This document shows positions 10,295-45,476 of a DNA stretch of 64,000 bases, piece by piece. Numbering within the stretch: the first letter of the stretch is position 1; the number at the start of each line of letters is the position of its first letter. The notes beneath the pieces were generated by a model, which saw only the letters and a program-made list of their open reading frames with translations, was not told the origin of the DNA and ran no database searches. The stretch spans positions 1 to 64,000 of the forward strand of contig VGTI01000017.1 of the NCBI GenBank assembly GCA_016874735.1, written 5' to 3'. The stretch comes from Deltaproteobacteria bacterium (GTDB taxonomy: Bacteria > Bdellovibrionota_B > Oligoflexia > Oligoflexales > CAIYRB01). The position numbers were made by a program, and so were the translations under genes.

Positions 10295-10431
10295 TTGCCG
10301 AAACGCATCCCTGGCTTAAGCGCGGAACTTTGCAAAAAATTACTAAAGTTTTTCCCCAAAAATGCCGATAACGCCGAGCGTTCGCTGTAATGGTCGCTTC
10401 AAATTGACACGTGCGGAAGTGGGAATAGATT

Positions 10432-11796
10432 ATGCTTAAACCTCGATTATCTCAGTGGTATTCGTTCATTACGCTTATTGCTCTGACGTCTTTTGGGTGT
10501 AAAGACCGACGTGGCTCGGACCTTACAGAAAGGGCACCGGGCGGCGTAGCATCGACGCCTGACACTCGCGGATTCGTTGGGCCAGGGGAAAGTATCGGTG
10601 ACACTGAGCTCAAAATAAACATCAACGATTACATTAAGCCTGTTGGGCAGCCGTTCAAGTGGACTGACGACATGACAGACCGTGTCATGAGCAGCCTCCC
10701 GCAAACCTGCGACGATCAAAGCCCGGTCAAGCAGGGTGTGGTCGCGGTGGCTATAGGTGGACAATGTCGCCTACTCGAGTTTGCTGCCGCTCGCAAAGAG
10801 CTCGGTAGCCTCGGAGCCATGCTCGCAGACAATGGCACCAACTTGAGTGATGTCATCGAAAACGACGCAGGCTCACCCGAGATCAAGTCAGTTGATGCTG
10901 CGTCACCACGACTAGATTTGGGTCATATAGTGCAACAGCAGCAAGGTAACGCCGAGAAATCGTCGATGAACTACGGCAAGGGCCTTGGCCTCACTTACGA
11001 GGCCGATGCAGGTTGGCGCGGAGGTGCCAAAAATTATTTGATTGGCAGTGAGCAGTTTGCAGCATCGGCGACAGGTTACTTTTTCGCAAGGAACCGGGGT
11101 GCCCTTGCAGTTCATTCTTCGGCAGACTTGACCGGCAAAGCATTTGGCGTCCAACGTTCGTTGATATTCACTAAGCTAGACGCAAGTGCTGAAAATGATA
11201 ATCCAAATTTTGATGCTGCGATCATGGTATTCGGGCAGGAAGTGCTGCGCCAGAATTTTAGTGGTCCTGGTATTGCAATCTCTAAAAATCTGTTCACAGC
11301 GAGTCACAATCTGCCAGGTAAGCTCAGATTCGCTGTCGGCCCAGTCCCCTTCAGTGTGAGTTGGTCATTCCGCGTCACAGGTGCCGTTCCCGTGACGGTG
11401 ACAGCACGGCCGATGGCCTTAACTGCTGGGATCAATCCAAACATCGGGACCACAGTGGGCCTTGAAGGCAGTGCCGACATCATGATTGCTCGCGCGGGTG
11501 TTGGGGGTAGCTTGTCCGTTGCCAGTGGAGTGCTCGCTGGCATTACAACGGCGCAATTGAAAACCGGTAAAGATAGTAAACAAAATTTATGTTACGGCGG
11601 AGATTTAAGTTTCCGGCTGAGTAATCTTCTCGGTGGTCGACTGGGCGCTTTTGCTGAGATTGGCAAACCAGGATCCAAGCTAGGGCGCATACCGGGTGGC
11701 TGGCACGGTGACTTTAACTTTGTCACATGGACGGGAACCGGTTACGATCTCAAGATATTAGACGCTAAGGATCATTGTTTCACCGAAGAGACTTGA
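10432..11796 (+). CDS. Orphan lipoprotein
   Basis: A 454-aa exported protein, probably lipidated. A short N-terminus and hydrophobic stretch end at TSFGC (Cys23), followed by charged residues. From about residue 170 the chain is rich in Gly, Ala and alternating hydrophobics (for example VPFSVSWSFRVTGAVPVTV), suggesting a beta-rich fold. I do not recognise the family. GTGGGA lies 7 nt before the ATG. It is followed 46 bp downstream by the HEAT-repeat gene on the same strand, so the two may be co-transcribed. Confidence 0.7.
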   Translation: MLKPRLSQWYSFITLIALTSFGCKDRRGSDLTERAPGGVASTPDTRGFVGPGESIGDTELKININDYIKPVGQPFKWTDDMTDRVMSSLPQTCDDQSPVKQGVVAVAIGGQCRLLEFAAARKELGSLGAMLADNGTNLSDVIENDAGSPEIKSVDAASPRLDLGHIVQQQQGNAEKSSMNYGKGLGLTYEADAGWRGGAKNYLIGSEQFAASATGYFFARNRGALAVHSSADLTGKAFGVQRSLIFTKLDASAENDNPNFDAAIMVFGQEVLRQNFSGPGIAISKNLFTASHNLPGKLRFAVGPVPFSVSWSFRVTGAVPVTVTARPMALTAGINPNIGTTVGLEGSADIMIARAGVGGSLSVASGVLAGITTAQLKTGKDSKQNLCYGGDLSFRLSNLLGGRLGAFAEIGKPGSKLGRIPGGWHGDFNFVTWTGTGYDLKILDAKDHCFTEET

Positions 11797-37726: not shown

Positions 37727-38524
37727 GTGTCACTGATCATCGGCCTAGCCGGCATCATTTTTGCCATCGGATATGCCTTCCTTAACGAGGGAAAAGGCGG
37801 GTTTACCGGCTATTTTTCGATGCCAGCATTTGTACTCCTTATGGTTGGTCCTCCGAGTATCATGCTCCTCTCGCATTCACTCACTGATCTCCTGACAGGG
37901 ATTCGCCTGCTTTTTTCCGCTCAGTTCAACCGTCAGGCTAAACTCCACGAAGAGGTTATCGAAATTTTGACCAATGCTGCCAAATCGGCTCGCAGCGACG
38001 GCCTCGGCGTGATCATTCAATATCGCGACAAGGCCAAGTACGACCTGCTACGCGATGGGCTCGCACTTATCGTAAACGATTTTAAGCCCGATGAGATTCG
38101 CAACAACCTGATGGCTCGTATCAACTTGAAACAAACGCGTATGCAGCTTGCATCAAGTCTATTCGACAACATGTCTCGTCTCTGCCCAGGCGTAGGCATG
38201 ATCGGAACGCTGATGGGTCTCATCGGCATGTTGTCACACATGGGTGATCCGGCAAAAATCGGCTCAAATATGGCTCTGGCTATGATCACCACCCTGTACG
38301 GTCTGGGACTAGGTACGATCATTTATGGCCCCTGGGCAGAGAAGATTGCTCTCGAAGCAGAGCGCAGCCTTGAAGTAGATATGCTGGTTGTTGAGGGTGT
38401 CCTCAACATCAAGGGCAAGAAGTCCTCTATGCACCTGAAGGACTTGGTCAAAAGTTACGGTGCGAAAGACAAGGAAAAAGACAAGGGTGGCGGCACGGGC
38501 TCAGCCGATAAGCGAGGCGCCTGA
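37727..38524 (+). CDS. motA: Flagellar stator protein MotA-like
   Basis: 265-aa MotA/TolQ/ExbB-family protein with four expected membrane helices (residues 1-20, 30-48, and two after 145). The hallmark segment FDNMSRLCPGVGMIGTLMGLIG and the following LYGLGLGTIIYGPW are present, as is the cytoplasmic loop between helices 2 and 3. With MotB it forms the proton- or sodium-driven stator. GTG start with GAGG 9 nt upstream. Its stop overlaps the motB start (TGATG). No other flagellar genes are in the window, so a stator for another motor is possible. Confidence 0.88.
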   Translation: MSLIIGLAGIIFAIGYAFLNEGKGGFTGYFSMPAFVLLMVGPPSIMLLSHSLTDLLTGIRLLFSAQFNRQAKLHEEVIEILTNAAKSARSDGLGVIIQYRDKAKYDLLRDGLALIVNDFKPDEIRNNLMARINLKQTRMQLASSLFDNMSRLCPGVGMIGTLMGLIGMLSHMGDPAKIGSNMALAMITTLYGLGLGTIIYGPWAEKIALEAERSLEVDMLVVEGVLNIKGKKSSMHLKDLVKSYGAKDKEKDKGGGTGSADKRGA

Positions 38525-39243
38525 TGGCCGATACGACCGAGCAGTCAACGTCCTCTAGTGGCGAATTCGCCGCCACCGCGCCTCGAAAAAAATCGCGTGT
38601 GCATAAGGGCGAAGGCCTTTGGCTCATGTCATTTTCAGATATGAGTTTGATCCTCATGTCGTTCTTTGTCCTACAGCTCGCCTACTCGACGCCAGATAAG
38701 CACAAGTATGACAATCTCAGTAGCGCGATCAAGGAGCAGAACACCAAGAAGGATCCCGACGCTAAAGAGGTTCCCGTAGAAAACCTTAAGACACTCTCCG
38801 ATAAGATTCGCAATCTCATCAGGCAGAAAAACCTGGACTCCGTCGCCTCAGTCAATTCGGATATTATGGGCCTGAGTATTGAGTTTCGTGATCAGCTGAT
38901 CTTCAACCCTGGCTCTGCCGAGCTAAATCCTGTGGCCAAGCAGCAAGTGGGCGTGGTGCTGGAGGCTATAGCCACGGCACCGGGGGAATATCGTCTTATC
39001 TTCGAGGGGCACACGGATGATGTTCCCGTCGGCAAGGGACGCTACAGTTCTAACTGGGAGCTGAGCTCCTCAAGGGGTATCGCCTTGGTTAACACCTTTA
39101 AAGCCAGAGGGGTTAACGAAAATCGTATGACCGTACACGCCTATGCTCATACTAAACCCAAGGTTAGCACTAAGGGATTGACCGGCGAGGCGCTAAAACG
39201 AGCGCGATCAATCAACCGGCGCGTAGTAGTGCGCATTGAGTGA
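38524..39243 (+). CDS. motB: Stator protein MotB-like with OmpA domain
   Basis: 239 aa. A single N-terminal membrane helix carries the ion-binding aspartate (MSFSDMSLILMSFF, Asp39). The C-terminal OmpA-like peptidoglycan-binding domain has LIFEGHTDDVPVG, NWELSSSRG and the closing RSINRRVVVRIE. It anchors the stator to the wall. Overlaps motA (TGATG), so the pair is translationally coupled. Confidence 0.92.
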   Translation: MADTTEQSTSSSGEFAATAPRKKSRVHKGEGLWLMSFSDMSLILMSFFVLQLAYSTPDKHKYDNLSSAIKEQNTKKDPDAKEVPVENLKTLSDKIRNLIRQKNLDSVASVNSDIMGLSIEFRDQLIFNPGSAELNPVAKQQVGVVLEAIATAPGEYRLIFEGHTDDVPVGKGRYSSNWELSSSRGIALVNTFKARGVNENRMTVHAYAHTKPKVSTKGLTGEALKRARSINRRVVVRIE

Positions 39244-39639: not shown

Positions 39640-41970
39640 ATGATTAGTCCGGAGTTGGAGATCAGCCTTAATTTGGCCGTGAGCGAGGCAGCTCGTCGCG
39701 GTCACGAGTTTGTGACTGTAGAGCATATTTTACTGGCGCTCCTTTATAACGACTCTGCCATTCGTGCCATGCGGGCGTGCGGTGGCAATGTTGACGTGAC
39801 GCGCCAGTATATCGAGGACTTTTTTGCGGAGAATTATCCCGCCGACGTCTTGCAGCCTGGTCAGATACCGCAGCCAACGATTGCCTTTCAGCGGGTGATC
39901 CAACGGGCGGCCCAGCACGTCCGTGCCGCCGGTAAGGATAAGATCGGTGGCGATAATCTGCTCGTGTCGATATTTTCTGAGCGCGAGTCGTTTGCCGTCT
40001 ATTTTTTGAAAAAACAGAATATAAGTCGCATCGACATCCTCAACTTCATCGCCCACGGCGTCGTCAAGCCAGGCGTCGACTTTGATGTGGAGGGTGAGGC
40101 TAGCCAGCGGAGTTTGCCACCTGGTGATCAAGATCAGGGCGAGGACGATGACGAGCAGGCCCAGGAAGCAGCGGAGGCAGGCGAAGAGGGGGCGAGGTCA
40201 GGGCGCGTTGGCAAGGATCCACTTAAGCTTTTCACCACGGATTTAGTGGCTCGCGCCCGCGCTGGTAAGATCGATCCTTTGATCGGCCGGGATGCTGAAC
40301 TTGAGAGGACGATTCAAGTCCTGTGTCGCCGTCGCAAGAACAATCCGCTTTACGTCGGCGATGCCGGTGTCGGTAAGACGGCCATTGCCGAGGGGCTTGC
40401 GCTTCGCATAGCGGAGAGCAAAGTACCCCCAGCTCTCAAAGACGCGGAAATCTTCGCGCTCGATATGGGGACTCTGCTAGCTGGATCCCGCTTTCGGGGT
40501 GATTTTGAGCAGCGCCTCAAAGATCTGATGAAGGCGCTTTTCAAGCGCAAGAAGGGGATCTTGTTTATCGACGAGATCCACACAGTCATTGGTGCTGGCT
40601 CGGTATCCGGTGGGGCTATGGATGCATCGAATTTACTGAAGCCCGCCCTATCTTCTGGTCAGTTGCGCTGCATTGGTTCGACGACCTATAAAGAATATCG
40701 GCAGCACTTCAAAAATGATCACGCCTTGGCGCGTCGCTTTCAGAAGATTGACGTCGACGAGCCTTCGCTAGCCGATACGATCAAGATCCTTAAAGGATTA
40801 AAGTCCAAGTACGAAGAGCATCACCACATCACCTACACGGCCGAGGCTCTGAGGGCAGCAGCTGAGCTGGCGCAGCGTCATTTGCGCGAGCGCAAGTTAC
40901 CCGATTCGGCCATCGATGTGATCGACGAGGCCGGTGCAGCTTTTGCACTGAAGCCGCGCAAGTCTAAGGACGGCAAGCCACTGCGTGTGACACCGACCGA
41001 GATTCAGCACGTGGTTGCCAAGATGGCGCGCATACCGCCGCAAAAGGTCAGCGCCACCGATCGCGAGAGTTTGAAAAATCTGGCCGAGGAGCTCAAAACA
41101 GTTGTATTTGGCCAAGATCAGGCGATCGACGCTCTCGCAGCCGCGATTAAGTTGGCGCGCAGTGGACTGCGGGATGAGGAGAAGCCCATAGGCAGCTTCC
41201 TCTTCGCTGGACCTACGGGCGTGGGCAAGACCGAGGTGGCAAAGCAGCTTGCTCATATCTTGGGTGTCGAATTTGTGCGGTACGACATGTCCGAATATAT
41301 GGAGAGGCATGCCGTTTCGCGCCTCATCGGTGCCCCTCCGGGATACGTCGGATTCGACCAAGGTGGTCTGCTGACTGAGGCCATCAATAAGAATCCGCAT
41401 GCCGTACTGCTACTGGACGAAATTGAAAAGGCTCACCCTGACATTCAAAATATTTTGCTGCAGGTGATGGATCACGGCACATTGACCGACGCCAATGGGC
41501 GCGAGACCGACTTCCGTAACGTCATCATCATCATGACGACTAACGCGGGGGCAAGAGAGCTGCTCCATGGCGCCATCGGCTTTAAGCGTGAGTTAGGTGT
41601 GGGCGCCGGCGAGAGCCAGGCAGTTAAGGATACCTTTAGTCCGGAGTTCCGTAACAGATTGGATGCCATCATCTCGTTCAAACCACTGGCGGAAGAAATT
41701 ATACTCAAAGTGGTCGACAAATTTATTGCGGACTTAGGCCGGCGTCTTGGCAAGCAGCGCGTCGTGCTGGCCGTTAGTGATGAGGCACGCCGTTATTTTG
41801 CACGTACCGGCTATGATCCAGCCTACGGTGCGCGTCCTCTGGGGCGTGTCATCCAAGATAAACTTAAAAAGCGTCTGGCCGATGAGCTCTTATTTGGCAA
41901 GCTCAGTGGTGGTGGCGAGGTGACCGTCGACCTAGACGGTGACGAGCTGGTATTTAAGTTTCAAAAGTAG
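39640..41970 (+). CDS. clpA: ATP-dependent Clp protease ATP-binding subunit ClpA
   Basis: 776-aa Hsp100 unfoldase that feeds substrates to ClpP. N-domain at residues 1-145; an acidic linker (about 160-185, rich in Asp/Glu/Gln/Ala); AAA-1 with Walker A GDAGVGKTAIAEGLA and Walker B ILFIDEIHT; AAA-2 with Walker A GPTGVGKTEVAKQLA and Walker B VLLLDEIEKAH, plus the arginine-finger and sensor segments (PEFRNRLD, YGARPLGR). Size matches ClpA. Followed by a strong terminator. Confidence 0.97.
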   Translation: MISPELEISLNLAVSEAARRGHEFVTVEHILLALLYNDSAIRAMRACGGNVDVTRQYIEDFFAENYPADVLQPGQIPQPTIAFQRVIQRAAQHVRAAGKDKIGGDNLLVSIFSERESFAVYFLKKQNISRIDILNFIAHGVVKPGVDFDVEGEASQRSLPPGDQDQGEDDDEQAQEAAEAGEEGARSGRVGKDPLKLFTTDLVARARAGKIDPLIGRDAELERTIQVLCRRRKNNPLYVGDAGVGKTAIAEGLALRIAESKVPPALKDAEIFALDMGTLLAGSRFRGDFEQRLKDLMKALFKRKKGILFIDEIHTVIGAGSVSGGAMDASNLLKPALSSGQLRCIGSTTYKEYRQHFKNDHALARRFQKIDVDEPSLADTIKILKGLKSKYEEHHHITYTAEALRAAAELAQRHLRERKLPDSAIDVIDEAGAAFALKPRKSKDGKPLRVTPTEIQHVVAKMARIPPQKVSATDRESLKNLAEELKTVVFGQDQAIDALAAAIKLARSGLRDEEKPIGSFLFAGPTGVGKTEVAKQLAHILGVEFVRYDMSEYMERHAVSRLIGAPPGYVGFDQGGLLTEAINKNPHAVLLLDEIEKAHPDIQNILLQVMDHGTLTDANGRETDFRNVIIIMTTNAGARELLHGAIGFKRELGVGAGESQAVKDTFSPEFRNRLDAIISFKPLAEEIILKVVDKFIADLGRRLGKQRVVLAVSDEARRYFARTGYDPAYGARPLGRVIQDKLKKRLADELLFGKLSGGGEVTVDLDGDELVFKFQK

Positions 41971-41980
41971 GATGAAACGC

Positions 41981-42030
41981 AACATCTCGATGTAGTCAGC
42001 TTCCTTACTGACTATACCGAGATGTTTTTT
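41981..42030 (+). terminator. Rho-independent terminator of clpS-clpA
   Basis: A long stem (left arm 41981-41999, right arm 42008-42026) with an 8-nt loop, followed by TTTTTT. The stem core ACATCTCG/CGAGATGT is shared with the terminator at 43266-43316, showing that this sequence belongs to the duplicated lipoprotein unit. It may also end transcription of the converging lipoprotein gene. Confidence 0.85.
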
Positions 42031-42046
42031 AGGGTGACTAATTACT

Positions 42047-43006
42047 TTACTTAGCGGCTGGTGCCACCGGTGCGCGCTCAACAGTGATCGAGACGCCACC
42101 AGTCGTGGCTGGAACCGCGGTTAGCTTGACGTTCGCAGCAGCGACTTTGCCAGCCTCGACCACGACTTTGGTTTCGCCACTTTCGATCACTTTGCCAGTA
42201 TTGCTGTCGATGAGCTCGATCACGACCACGTAGGTGCCTGGTTCGAGGTCTTCAACGGCGAATACTTTCTGATCGGAACCGAAGTAGTAGTTTAGAGTAT
42301 TGTGTGAGATCGCGGTGCCGACATCCGAGTCTTGGAAGGCGGCCAACGGATCGTTCTCATTCTCTTCCAGATCGGAGCCGAAGCCGAAGCCGCACGAACC
42401 AGCTGGATGGGATTCATCCAGCCAATGTAGCGGGACGAATGCTACTGGTTGGACTGCCTGACCCTTGCCGACGCGAGCTGTGGGTCCCTCTTTCTTAGAT
42501 TTTTTTGCGGCTTTTTCGCCATGGTTTTTTCCGTTAGTCGCCGCCTTAGCTAGGCTCGCAGAAGCAAGCGGATGTTTCTCTAGGACTCCGATATGCCCAG
42601 GCCTGCCTCCTATGAGGCTGCAGGGTTTTTGATCTGCAAAAATTTCACGAGGAAATTTTTGAAACTCGTAGGCCCCACATGGCCAACCTTTAGCAGGCGC
42701 GTACGGTGGTGCTGGTACAAACTCGGTTTTTGCTCCAGAGATTAGCGTAATGCTGACCGTATCTACGGTTTTAGGCATCTCTGCTGGGAGCGTCAAAGCT
42801 AGTCCGCGATTCACGAGAGCGACATCGCCGTCGCGTTTAGCCTGCTCCGCTGCGGTGGCAGTACCGCTAGCATTGGCAGATTGCTGCCCTTTGGCCCGAC
42901 GCTCTTCTTTGACTATCACGGTGCCGCACGCCACTAAAAATGTGCTGAGTACCGCTGCGTATACTGGAATACTTACGACCTTACGAACAAAAGATGAAGT
43001 TGACAC
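42047..43006 (-). CDS. Duplicated lipoprotein, copy A
   Basis: About 319 aa. I prefer GTG 43006 (AAGGAG 5 nt upstream) over GTG 43012, which sits directly on the Shine-Dalgarno. Lipobox LVAC. Residues 25-70 are charged, with a V-K-E-E-R-R-A-K-G segment shared with copy B and an N-R-G-L-A-L-T-L-P-A-E segment. The centre is variable and Lys/Ala-rich with several cysteines. The C-terminal 110 residues (LNYYFGSDQK, EDLEPGTYVVVIELID, then two Val-rich strands and ITVERAP) look like an immunoglobulin-like or carboxypeptidase-regulatory-like beta domain. Function unknown; probably a periplasmic or surface lipoprotein. It has its own leader hairpin. Confidence 0.8.
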   Translation of the reverse strand: MSTSSFVRKVVSIPVYAAVLSTFLVACGTVIVKEERRAKGQQSANASGTATAAEQAKRDGDVALVNRGLALTLPAEMPKTVDTVSITLISGAKTEFVPAPPYAPAKGWPCGAYEFQKFPREIFADQKPCSLIGGRPGHIGVLEKHPLASASLAKAATNGKNHGEKAAKKSKKEGPTARVGKGQAVQPVAFVPLHWLDESHPAGSCGFGFGSDLEENENDPLAAFQDSDVGTAISHNTLNYYFGSDQKVFAVEDLEPGTYVVVIELIDSNTGKVIESGETKVVVEAGKVAAANVKLTAVPATTGGVSITVERAPVAPAAK

Positions 43007-43033
43007 AAGCACTCCTTCCCTGGGGAATAAAGG

Positions 43034-43066
43034 AGAGGATCCGATGTATAGTTTGGTGGGTCCTCT
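43034..43066 (-). promoter_or_regulatory. Leader hairpin, copy A
   Basis: AGAGGATCC (43034-43042) faces GGGTCCTCT (43058-43066): a 9-position stem with one mismatch and a 15-nt loop, about 28 nt upstream of the start. It recurs upstream of copy B with nearly the same loop, which argues that the sequence matters. Confidence 0.45.
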
Positions 43067-43265
43067 AGGTTGTACCGAAATGATGTTTTCCTATCGGCAT
43101 TTTTAGAGGCACCATTGAGCATTTAATAATAAACATTATTTTATTATGTAATTGCTTAGCGTTTATTTGCCTCATCTCAGATAATGCGGAAAGTTGTGCT
43201 TTGACTTGCGTTTGTGCCAGCAATGCGACGAGGATGTTTTTAAGTAGAAGAATTAGGGTGAAAAG

Positions 43266-43316
43266 AAACATCTCGGTGTAGTTAGTTGCACCGCTGACTG
43301 CACCGAGATGTTTTTT
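43266..43316 (-). terminator. Bidirectional terminator behind lipoprotein copy B
   Basis: Left arm 43266-43285, right arm 43294-43316, with TTCTTTTC after the stem on the minus strand and TTTTTT on the plus strand. It ends transcription of copy B (minus). Confidence 0.8.
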
Positions 43317-43328
43317 AGATATCTCTAA

Positions 43329-44345
43329 TTATTTTTTAGTTTGCGTAACAGCTGCAGTCGGCGCGCGCTCGACGGTGATCACAACGCCACCAGTGGTCGC
43401 TGGAACCGTGGTTAATTTGACTTTCGCAGCAGCGACTTTGCCAGCCTCGACCACGACTTTAGTTTCGCCGCTCTCGATCACTTTGCCGGTTTTGCTATCG
43501 ATAAGCTCGATCACGACCACGTAGGTGCCTGGTTCGAGGTCTTCGACGGCGAATTCCTTTTGATCGGAACCGAAATAGTAGTTCAGTGTGTTAAAGGAAA
43601 TATTAGTCCCTGCATCGGAATCTAGAAAAGCAGCTAGTGGATCGTTGTCCTTCAGATCGGAACCTAAGCCGCACGAACCCGCAGGGCGCGTGTCATCTAG
43701 CCAGTGTAATGGGACAAATGCTACCGGTTGGATGGCTTGACCCTTGCCGACGCGAGCAGCCGGCCCGTGCTTTTTGGATTTTATTGCGGCTTTTTCGTGA
43801 TGAGCTTTACTGTGATGATCTTTTTCGTGATGAGCTGCCTGACTAATACCCGCGGCAGCTAGCGGATGTTTTTCTTGAAGTCCGTTATGCCAAGGGAGGC
43901 TCTTGAGCAAACCACCGATGTCACCTCCGCCACAGCCCTCTATGGGAAGGCCACCACCACCGTTACCAAAGTAATAACTGCATGGAAGTATTTTAGTGGG
44001 TTCTGGTTTAATGTCAGCAGGCAAAATTTGAACTGGAGCTGGCACTGGTACTGGCTCGGATTTTAATTCAGAGATTAGCGTAATGCTGACCGTATCGACG
44101 GTTTTAGGCATCTCTGCTGGGAGCGTTAGAGCTAAACCTCGGTTCACGGCTGCAATGTCACCATCGCGTTTAGCTTGTTCCGTTGCTGTAGAGTCGGCGT
44201 TACCGGCAGCGGTGGCAGACTGTAGCCCTTTTGCCCGGCGCTCTTCTTTGACGGTTACGGTGCCGCACGCCACTAACATTGTGCTGAGTACCGCTGCATA
44301 AACTGGAACACTGACGACCTTCCGAACGACAGACGAAGTTGACAC
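43329..44345 (-). CDS. Duplicated lipoprotein, copy B
   Basis: About 338 aa from GTG 44345 (AAGGAG 5 nt upstream, as in copy A; GTG 44351 is the alternative). Lipobox LVAC. N-terminal 75 and C-terminal 150 residues are nearly identical to copy A. The centre differs: a Pro/Val-rich stretch (EPVPVPAPVQILPAD), a Gly/Cys patch (GNGGGGLPIEGCGGG) and a His-rich segment (HHEKDHHSKAHHEKAA) that could bind metal. Lies 191 bp downstream of proC on the same strand. Function unknown. Confidence 0.8.
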   Translation of the reverse strand: MSTSSVVRKVVSVPVYAAVLSTMLVACGTVTVKEERRAKGLQSATAAGNADSTATEQAKRDGDIAAVNRGLALTLPAEMPKTVDTVSITLISELKSEPVPVPAPVQILPADIKPEPTKILPCSYYFGNGGGGLPIEGCGGGDIGGLLKSLPWHNGLQEKHPLAAAGISQAAHHEKDHHSKAHHEKAAIKSKKHGPAARVGKGQAIQPVAFVPLHWLDDTRPAGSCGLGSDLKDNDPLAAFLDSDAGTNISFNTLNYYFGSDQKEFAVEDLEPGTYVVVIELIDSKTGKVIESGETKVVVEAGKVAAAKVKLTTVPATTGGVVITVERAPTAAVTQTKK

Positions 44346-44374
44346 AAGCACTCCTTCCCTTGGGGGGATAAAGG

Positions 44375-44407
44375 AGAGGATCCGATGGATAGTTTGGTGG
44401 GTCCTCT
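44375..44407 (-). promoter_or_regulatory. Leader hairpin, copy B
   Basis: AGAGGATCC (44375-44383) with GGGTCCTCT (44399-44407), the same stem as in copy A; the loop differs at one base (GATGGATA versus GATGTATA). The conserved block continues to the Shine-Dalgarno. Confidence 0.45.
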
Positions 44408-44536
44408 AGGTTTAGGCGAACTTATGGGTAGTTATCGGCATTTTGAGGACCAAACTTTAGCGAACCCCGATAAACATCGTATTTTTGAGTGATTACCTGG
44501 ACTTAATTTTTCTCAATCCGCGGAGAATTCAAAATC

Positions 44537-45373
44537 CTATTTGCTCCGCAGCGCCGCCGATCTTTTGGTCGCAGTCTCTACGGCGCTGATTAGCATGGCC
44601 CGAAGACCGCGGTCTTCTAATTCATGGATGGCGCTGATGGTGGTGCCGCCTGGTGTCGTTACTTGATCGCGTAGGATGGCTGGATGAAGGCCAGTCTCCT
44701 TCACGAGGAGCGCTGAGCCTAGTACCGTCTGAGTGGCAAGACGCGCGGCTTGGGCCCGTGGGATACCCATCTTCACGCCGCCGTCGGTCAAGGCCTCGAT
44801 CACCATGTAAAGATATGCTGGTCCACTGCCCGAAAGTCCAGTCACGGCGTCGAGCAGCGGTTCCTTAATCCAGTCAGCTTCGCCAATGGCGCGAAAGATG
44901 CGTTCCGCTAAAATCTTTTGGTCGTCCGTACATGCAGGACTGGCACTCATACCGGTGGCAGCGGCGTGTACGGTCGCGGCTATATTGGGCATCGCCCGGA
45001 CGACGCCGCCTTGAAATCGCAGCGTTTCTTCAATCGCAGCGATGGGAGTGCCGGCGAGTATGCTCACTACTAGGGTATTGGGCCGAATCTTGCCGGCTAG
45101 AGGCTGGGTGACAGTGACCAAGTCTTGTGGTTTCACACAGAAGATCAGCGCATCAATGTTAGCTAATTCAACCTCAGGCGTGGTGACTGCCCGCACGTCA
45201 TATTTTTTGCACAGCTCATCGACGCGCGCACTATGGATATCGTGCACGGCTACGGTGAATCCCGAATCACTAAGGCCCTTAGCGAGAGCGCCGCCCATAT
45301 TACCAGCGCCGATGATGAGGACTGCTGCGCTTTTGTGACTCCGTGTGCTCTTGCTGTCGCTGGTCGTTGCCAT
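44537..45373 (-). CDS. proC: Pyrroline-5-carboxylate reductase
   Basis: Last step of proline synthesis: NAD(P)H-dependent reduction of P5C. About 278 aa from ATG 45373; an upstream GTG at 45448 lacks a ribosome binding site and would give an unusual N-terminus. Motifs: Rossmann LIIGAGNMGGALAKGL, the FCVKPQD segment, GLSGSGPAYLYMVIEAL and the C-terminal signature DQVTTPGGTTISAIHELE. Standalone; proline dehydrogenase lies about 11 kb away. Confidence 0.96.
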   Translation of the reverse strand: MATTSDSKSTRSHKSAAVLIIGAGNMGGALAKGLSDSGFTVAVHDIHSARVDELCKKYDVRAVTTPEVELANIDALIFCVKPQDLVTVTQPLAGKIRPNTLVVSILAGTPIAAIEETLRFQGGVVRAMPNIAATVHAAATGMSASPACTDDQKILAERIFRAIGEADWIKEPLLDAVTGLSGSGPAYLYMVIEALTDGGVKMGIPRAQAARLATQTVLGSALLVKETGLHPAILRDQVTTPGGTTISAIHELEDRGLRAMLISAVETATKRSAALRSK

Positions 45374-45476
45374 GGGCCTCGTCTTTCGCAGGGGGTTGAA
45401 CTCTAGTTTAGAGATATCATATTTAACATAGAGCACCAATTGAGACACCGGGTTATGGCGACTTCCGCGCGATGCC

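Follow-up and report, generated by a model that had tools for sequence, protein, structure and literature searches.

The window (the whole 64,000-nucleotide stretch that was analysed) carries two lipoprotein genes, here called copies A and B, flanked by clpA (39640-41970, plus strand) and proC (44537-45448, minus strand). The features of this interval are as follows.

41981..42030, no strand assigned: terminator hairpin separating clpA from copy A
42047..43012, minus strand: copy A, lipoprotein gene (321 aa, GTG start, lipobox Cys29; family member)
42083..42274, minus strand: conserved C-terminal strand core, copy A
42275..42739, minus strand: variable insert, copy A (about residues 92-246)
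42926..43012, minus strand: signal peptide and lipobox, copy A
43034..43066, minus strand: leader hairpin, copy A
43091..43118, minus strand: degenerate sigma-28-type promoter, copy A (TCAATGGT-N12-GCCGATAG, 11/15)
43227..43262, plus strand: probable remnant of the 3' end of clpA, brought along by the duplication (26/36 identical to 41941-41976)
43263..43316, no strand assigned: terminator hairpin copy between A and B (T-run on the plus strand, as expected of a copy of the clpA terminator)
43329..44351, minus strand: copy B, lipoprotein gene (340 aa, GTG start, lipobox Cys29; family member)
43374..43565, minus strand: conserved C-terminal strand core, copy B (residues 263-326)
43566..44072, minus strand: variable insert, copy B (residues 94-262; the sharply divergent part, residues 94-163, is 43863-44072)
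43785..43832, minus strand: His-rich stretch HHEKDHHSKAHHEKAA, copy B
44265..44351, minus strand: signal peptide and lipobox, copy B (differs from A by about 0.25 at silent sites)
44375..44407, minus strand: leader hairpin, copy B (upstream of the ribosome-binding site; the sister species has the same stem, with compensating changes)
44433..44459, minus strand: sigma-28 (FliA)-type promoter, copy B (TAAAGTTT-N12-GCCGATA, 15/15 consensus positions; conserved in sister species L009)

The original prediction described a tandemly duplicated unit with alike ends and a divergent centre, and the protein identities, DNA windows, lipoboxes, leaders, and terminator hairpins all bear this out. Each copy comes with a separate leader, ribosome-binding site, and terminator hairpin, and both sequences carry the signal peptide, lipobox (LVAC), and invariant Cys (Cys29) of a predicted signal peptidase II substrate. 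The two proteins are 75% identical overall. Their strands at residues 70-93 are the same at every position (24/24), and the C-terminal core (263-326) matches at 59 of 64, as against 53% identity in the insert. In the DNA, the leader, signal, and C-terminal parts mostly agree at 33-38 of 40 positions, and the match drops to 10-13 of 40 in the centre, where it is lowest near 43904-44023. The sharp difference claimed for the centre holds for about residues 94-163 of B, but not throughout, as a block reading KKSKK..PTARVGKGQAxQPVAFVPLHWLD..PAGSC lies inside this centre and is conserved in both copies. Similarly, the His-rich stretch does set B apart from A, which reads NGKN...HGEKAA at the same place, but it is not specific to B, with KKHKHHN found there in the sister-species orthologue. 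An assembly artefact is unlikely because the copies differ by 25% in protein and their terminators differ in sequence.

The duplication itself is supported by the sister species G004, where one contig (L078) has a single copy in the clpA-proC interval, with proC directly next to it. Because G004 has one copy, G005 has none in the same interval, and G002 has one more distant copy in the opposite orientation, the two-copy state would belong to the window lineage alone among the genomes compared, unless G004 has lost a copy. The T-run of the second terminator is on the clpA strand, where no gene now needs one, and the repeated unit takes in the terminator and what appears to be the final ~30 nt of clpA. 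This clpA relic is probable rather than proven, because the wider match around it is modest (score 33.5, reached by 6 of 1000 shuffles).

Copies A and B belong to a family of twenty-two proteins, found in this genus and in some few relatives, with the lipobox Cys invariant in all twenty-two. The N-terminal part of the family is a strand pair, LxLxLP..MP..VDQVxVTL, followed by the insert and then by a C-terminal core of the form DLxPGxYxIxVELxDSxTGKVYxxGEGxVxIxAGK. Insert length ranges from 13 to 174 residues across the members (a compact one, L004, has 22), and two Cys are present in most inserts. Mean pairwise identity among the twenty-two is 36% in the two constant parts versus 7% in the insert. 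The family profile has two to eight matches in each of the six genus genomes, some of them pieces of one gene; of the 43 genomes searched in the order, only two others have a match, one apiece, and the family appears to be restricted to the genus. A third, distant member is found at 37-813 of the window.

Neither A nor B matched Pfam or NCBIfam over the curated cut-offs, and scanning all twenty-two members returned isolated weak Pfam matches only, in one member each. No PDB chain was matched by a five-sequence profile. Our search of the published literature for lipoproteins in tandem whose central region varies found nothing. The predicted strand pattern has two strands before the insert and four after it. 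Because the AlphaFold model has a mean pLDDT of only 38, it is from this strand prediction and the alignment that we infer a core folded as a single small beta-sandwich, which would hold out and display the insert.

The centre is not equally conserved in orthologues; the family insert varies between them too. L021 (G002, 1279-2325) and L022 (G005, 901-1935) are syntenic orthologues with conserved neighbours on both sides. Their C-terminal cores are identical (64/64) and their flanks have a ps of 0.05-0.35, near that of clpA of G002 and G005 (0.25), whereas about 80 insert residues are non-homologous (ps 0.64-0.76, pn 0.63). Searches for frame-shifted or inverted homology between the two centres gave short matches only, near the shuffle maximum. 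The other two orthologue pairs show a milder insert divergence (insert identities of 68% and 76% versus 100% and 79% in the core), and abrupt replacement of the insert is clear in one of the three pairs compared. Insert turnover is therefore a property of the family. The originally proposed variable part in a constant frame is thus seen in the A/B, family, and orthologue comparisons.

Silent divergence between A and B is also mosaic, at 0.24-0.30 per site in the signal region and C-terminal core and mostly 0.5-0.95 in the middle, though exact values are unreliable, as segments this short give noisy Nei-Gojobori estimates and the alignment has gaps in the middle. The clustering of silent differences was matched in none of 200 permutations. 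As a species-level yardstick, G000 and G004 differ by 0.82 at silent sites of clpA and 0.68 at those of proC. Selection on amino acids alone is insufficient here, because silent sites should not then differ between the ends and the middle. Given low silent divergence at the ends and high silent divergence in the middle, the ends have probably been homogenised by gene conversion, or the middle has been replaced. Recent duplication followed by diversification, as first suggested, therefore fits the ends (about 0.3) but is incomplete for the middle, and conversion of the ends or replacement of the middle must have contributed. The VlsE protein of Borrelia is an example of variable surface lipoproteins driven by gene conversion. 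Proteins of the VlsE type resemble A and B in being lipoproteins with constant ends and a variable middle; unlike them, the A/B family has no silent cassette array that we could see, and its variation is between paralogues and species.

The motif that defines the putative sigma-28 regulon (TAAAGTTT-N11/12-GCCGATA) lies upstream of both copies, complete in B and with only 11 of 15 positions kept in A. Across the genome there are 78 sites for TAAA-N15..17-GCCGATA versus seven for the reversed pattern, and each of the six genus genomes has an excess of a near-identical pattern. Lipoprotein genes stand behind 34 of the 55 strong sites (about 62%) compared with 49 of 328 background genes (15%; Fisher p about 1.5e-12), as counted in retrieved genome regions with one simple lipobox rule for the two sets, though with slightly different handling of start codons. 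Under a stricter lipobox rule the counts are 26/55 and 36/328. A FliA gene is present in the genome, and these motifs suggest that copy B belongs to a large, lipoprotein-dominated sigma-28 (FliA)-type regulon. The motif is absent from several family members, and among the eight flagellin genes (L161-L168) just one or two have even a fair version of it within 300 bases upstream. The leader hairpins, lying beside the ribosome-binding site, raise the possibility of translational control. A riboswitch is not supported; the hairpin is conserved, but it matches no family, and an Rfam search of the duplicated unit gave chance-level matches only.

A sigma-28-type promoter would suit proteins with which a swimming cell touches its surroundings. 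A and B are most likely lipoproteins of the surface or envelope that serve the motile stage, and their insert would contact a variable partner, with both exposure and binding being what we infer. They would be made in the motile stage, gene conversion would keep their ends alike while the insert diverges, and the insert would bind a partner that itself varies, whether a surface, another cell, or a substrate. To the full description, a tandem-duplicated envelope lipoprotein pair of a genus-restricted family, made by motile cells and using its insert to contact a variable partner, we give about an even chance. The exposure and recognition role suggested by the original prediction for the variable part is plausible.

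A serious neutral alternative remains, in which the insert is a free-running linker or disordered loop and the centre of an ordinary duplicate has drifted without constraint. The inserts are rich in Pro, His, and Lys, with low predicted order; lengths from 13 to 174 residues are tolerated and indels are numerous, and in inserts so rich in Pro and His the variation could simply come from a lack of constraint. However, most inserts keep two Cys, the A and B inserts share the conserved KKSKK..PAGSC block, the L021/L022 boundaries are abrupt, and relaxed constraint on the protein does not explain the higher silent divergence in the middle. We regard such drift as possible but doubtful. It is likewise only a tentative suggestion that recombination brought in the middle from some other lipoprotein gene, instead of the ends being converted. 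The non-homologous centre between the orthologous flanks of L021 and L022 is what such a cassette replacement should leave, and silent divergence in the A/B middle is near saturation, but a full-length search of its own genome found no donor for the B centre, and A and B can be aligned through much of the middle. Cassette replacement could be combined with the reading as motile-stage lipoproteins, from which it differs on the mechanism of divergence.

The His-rich stretch of B and its counterpart in the sister-species orthologue could also point to an envelope protein that binds or delivers metal. We consider this improbable, as the stretch is largely lost in A and absent from other family members, no metal genes were recognised among the examined neighbours of the pair, and there is no family match. 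Programmed hypervariation by a diversity-generating retroelement would likewise place a hypervariable part within a constant protein frame, but the variation here includes indels and full replacement, and such an origin is very improbable indeed. This genome has two reverse transcriptases, both located on other contigs (C50 and C41), and no template repeat was found near A and B.

The nearest described parallel to the proposed sigma-28 regulon is the attack-phase regulon of Bdellovibrio bacteriovorus, where FliA has been proposed as a global regulator and TTAAG-N16-CCGATA is found at 92 of the 140 promoters of that phase, among them promoters of cell-surface anchors (PMC3627812). The two are alike in having a sigma-28-type motif with a matching -10 element (CCGATA), similar spacing, and a reach far beyond flagellar genes that includes cell-surface proteins (PMC3627812). 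They differ in that the -35 element here is TAAAG, the targets are mostly lipoproteins, the strong motif is missing from most flagellin genes, and the regulon is one predicted from sequence. The mosaic adhesive trimer (MAT) fibres of B. bacteriovorus share the idea of paralogous surface proteins whose recognition parts have diversified, a likeness that is an analogy only. MATs are fibre-like with diversified tips (PMC10769870), and in the A/B family the insert lies within a small lipoprotein core.

More speculatively, this environmental genus may run a lipoprotein-dominated sigma-28 surface programme, in which the family would serve as a constant scaffold whose recognition inserts can be exchanged, having spread through tandem duplication, gene conversion, and the replacement of inserts. 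If true, this would provide a scaffold family, so far uncharacterised, in which to test how bacteria alter the part of an envelope protein used for recognition, and would show dozens of lipoproteins brought under the control of a flagellar-type sigma factor, to set beside the described Bdellovibrio case.

The window also holds motA/motB-type stator genes (37727-39243), just past clpS-clpA from the A/B pair, and a strong sigma-28-type motif (10344-10370, plus strand) before the gene for a 454-aa lipoprotein (10432-11796). Two identical sigma-28-like matches located 6 kb apart (G000:C34:8103 and 14181) probably represent a further duplication.
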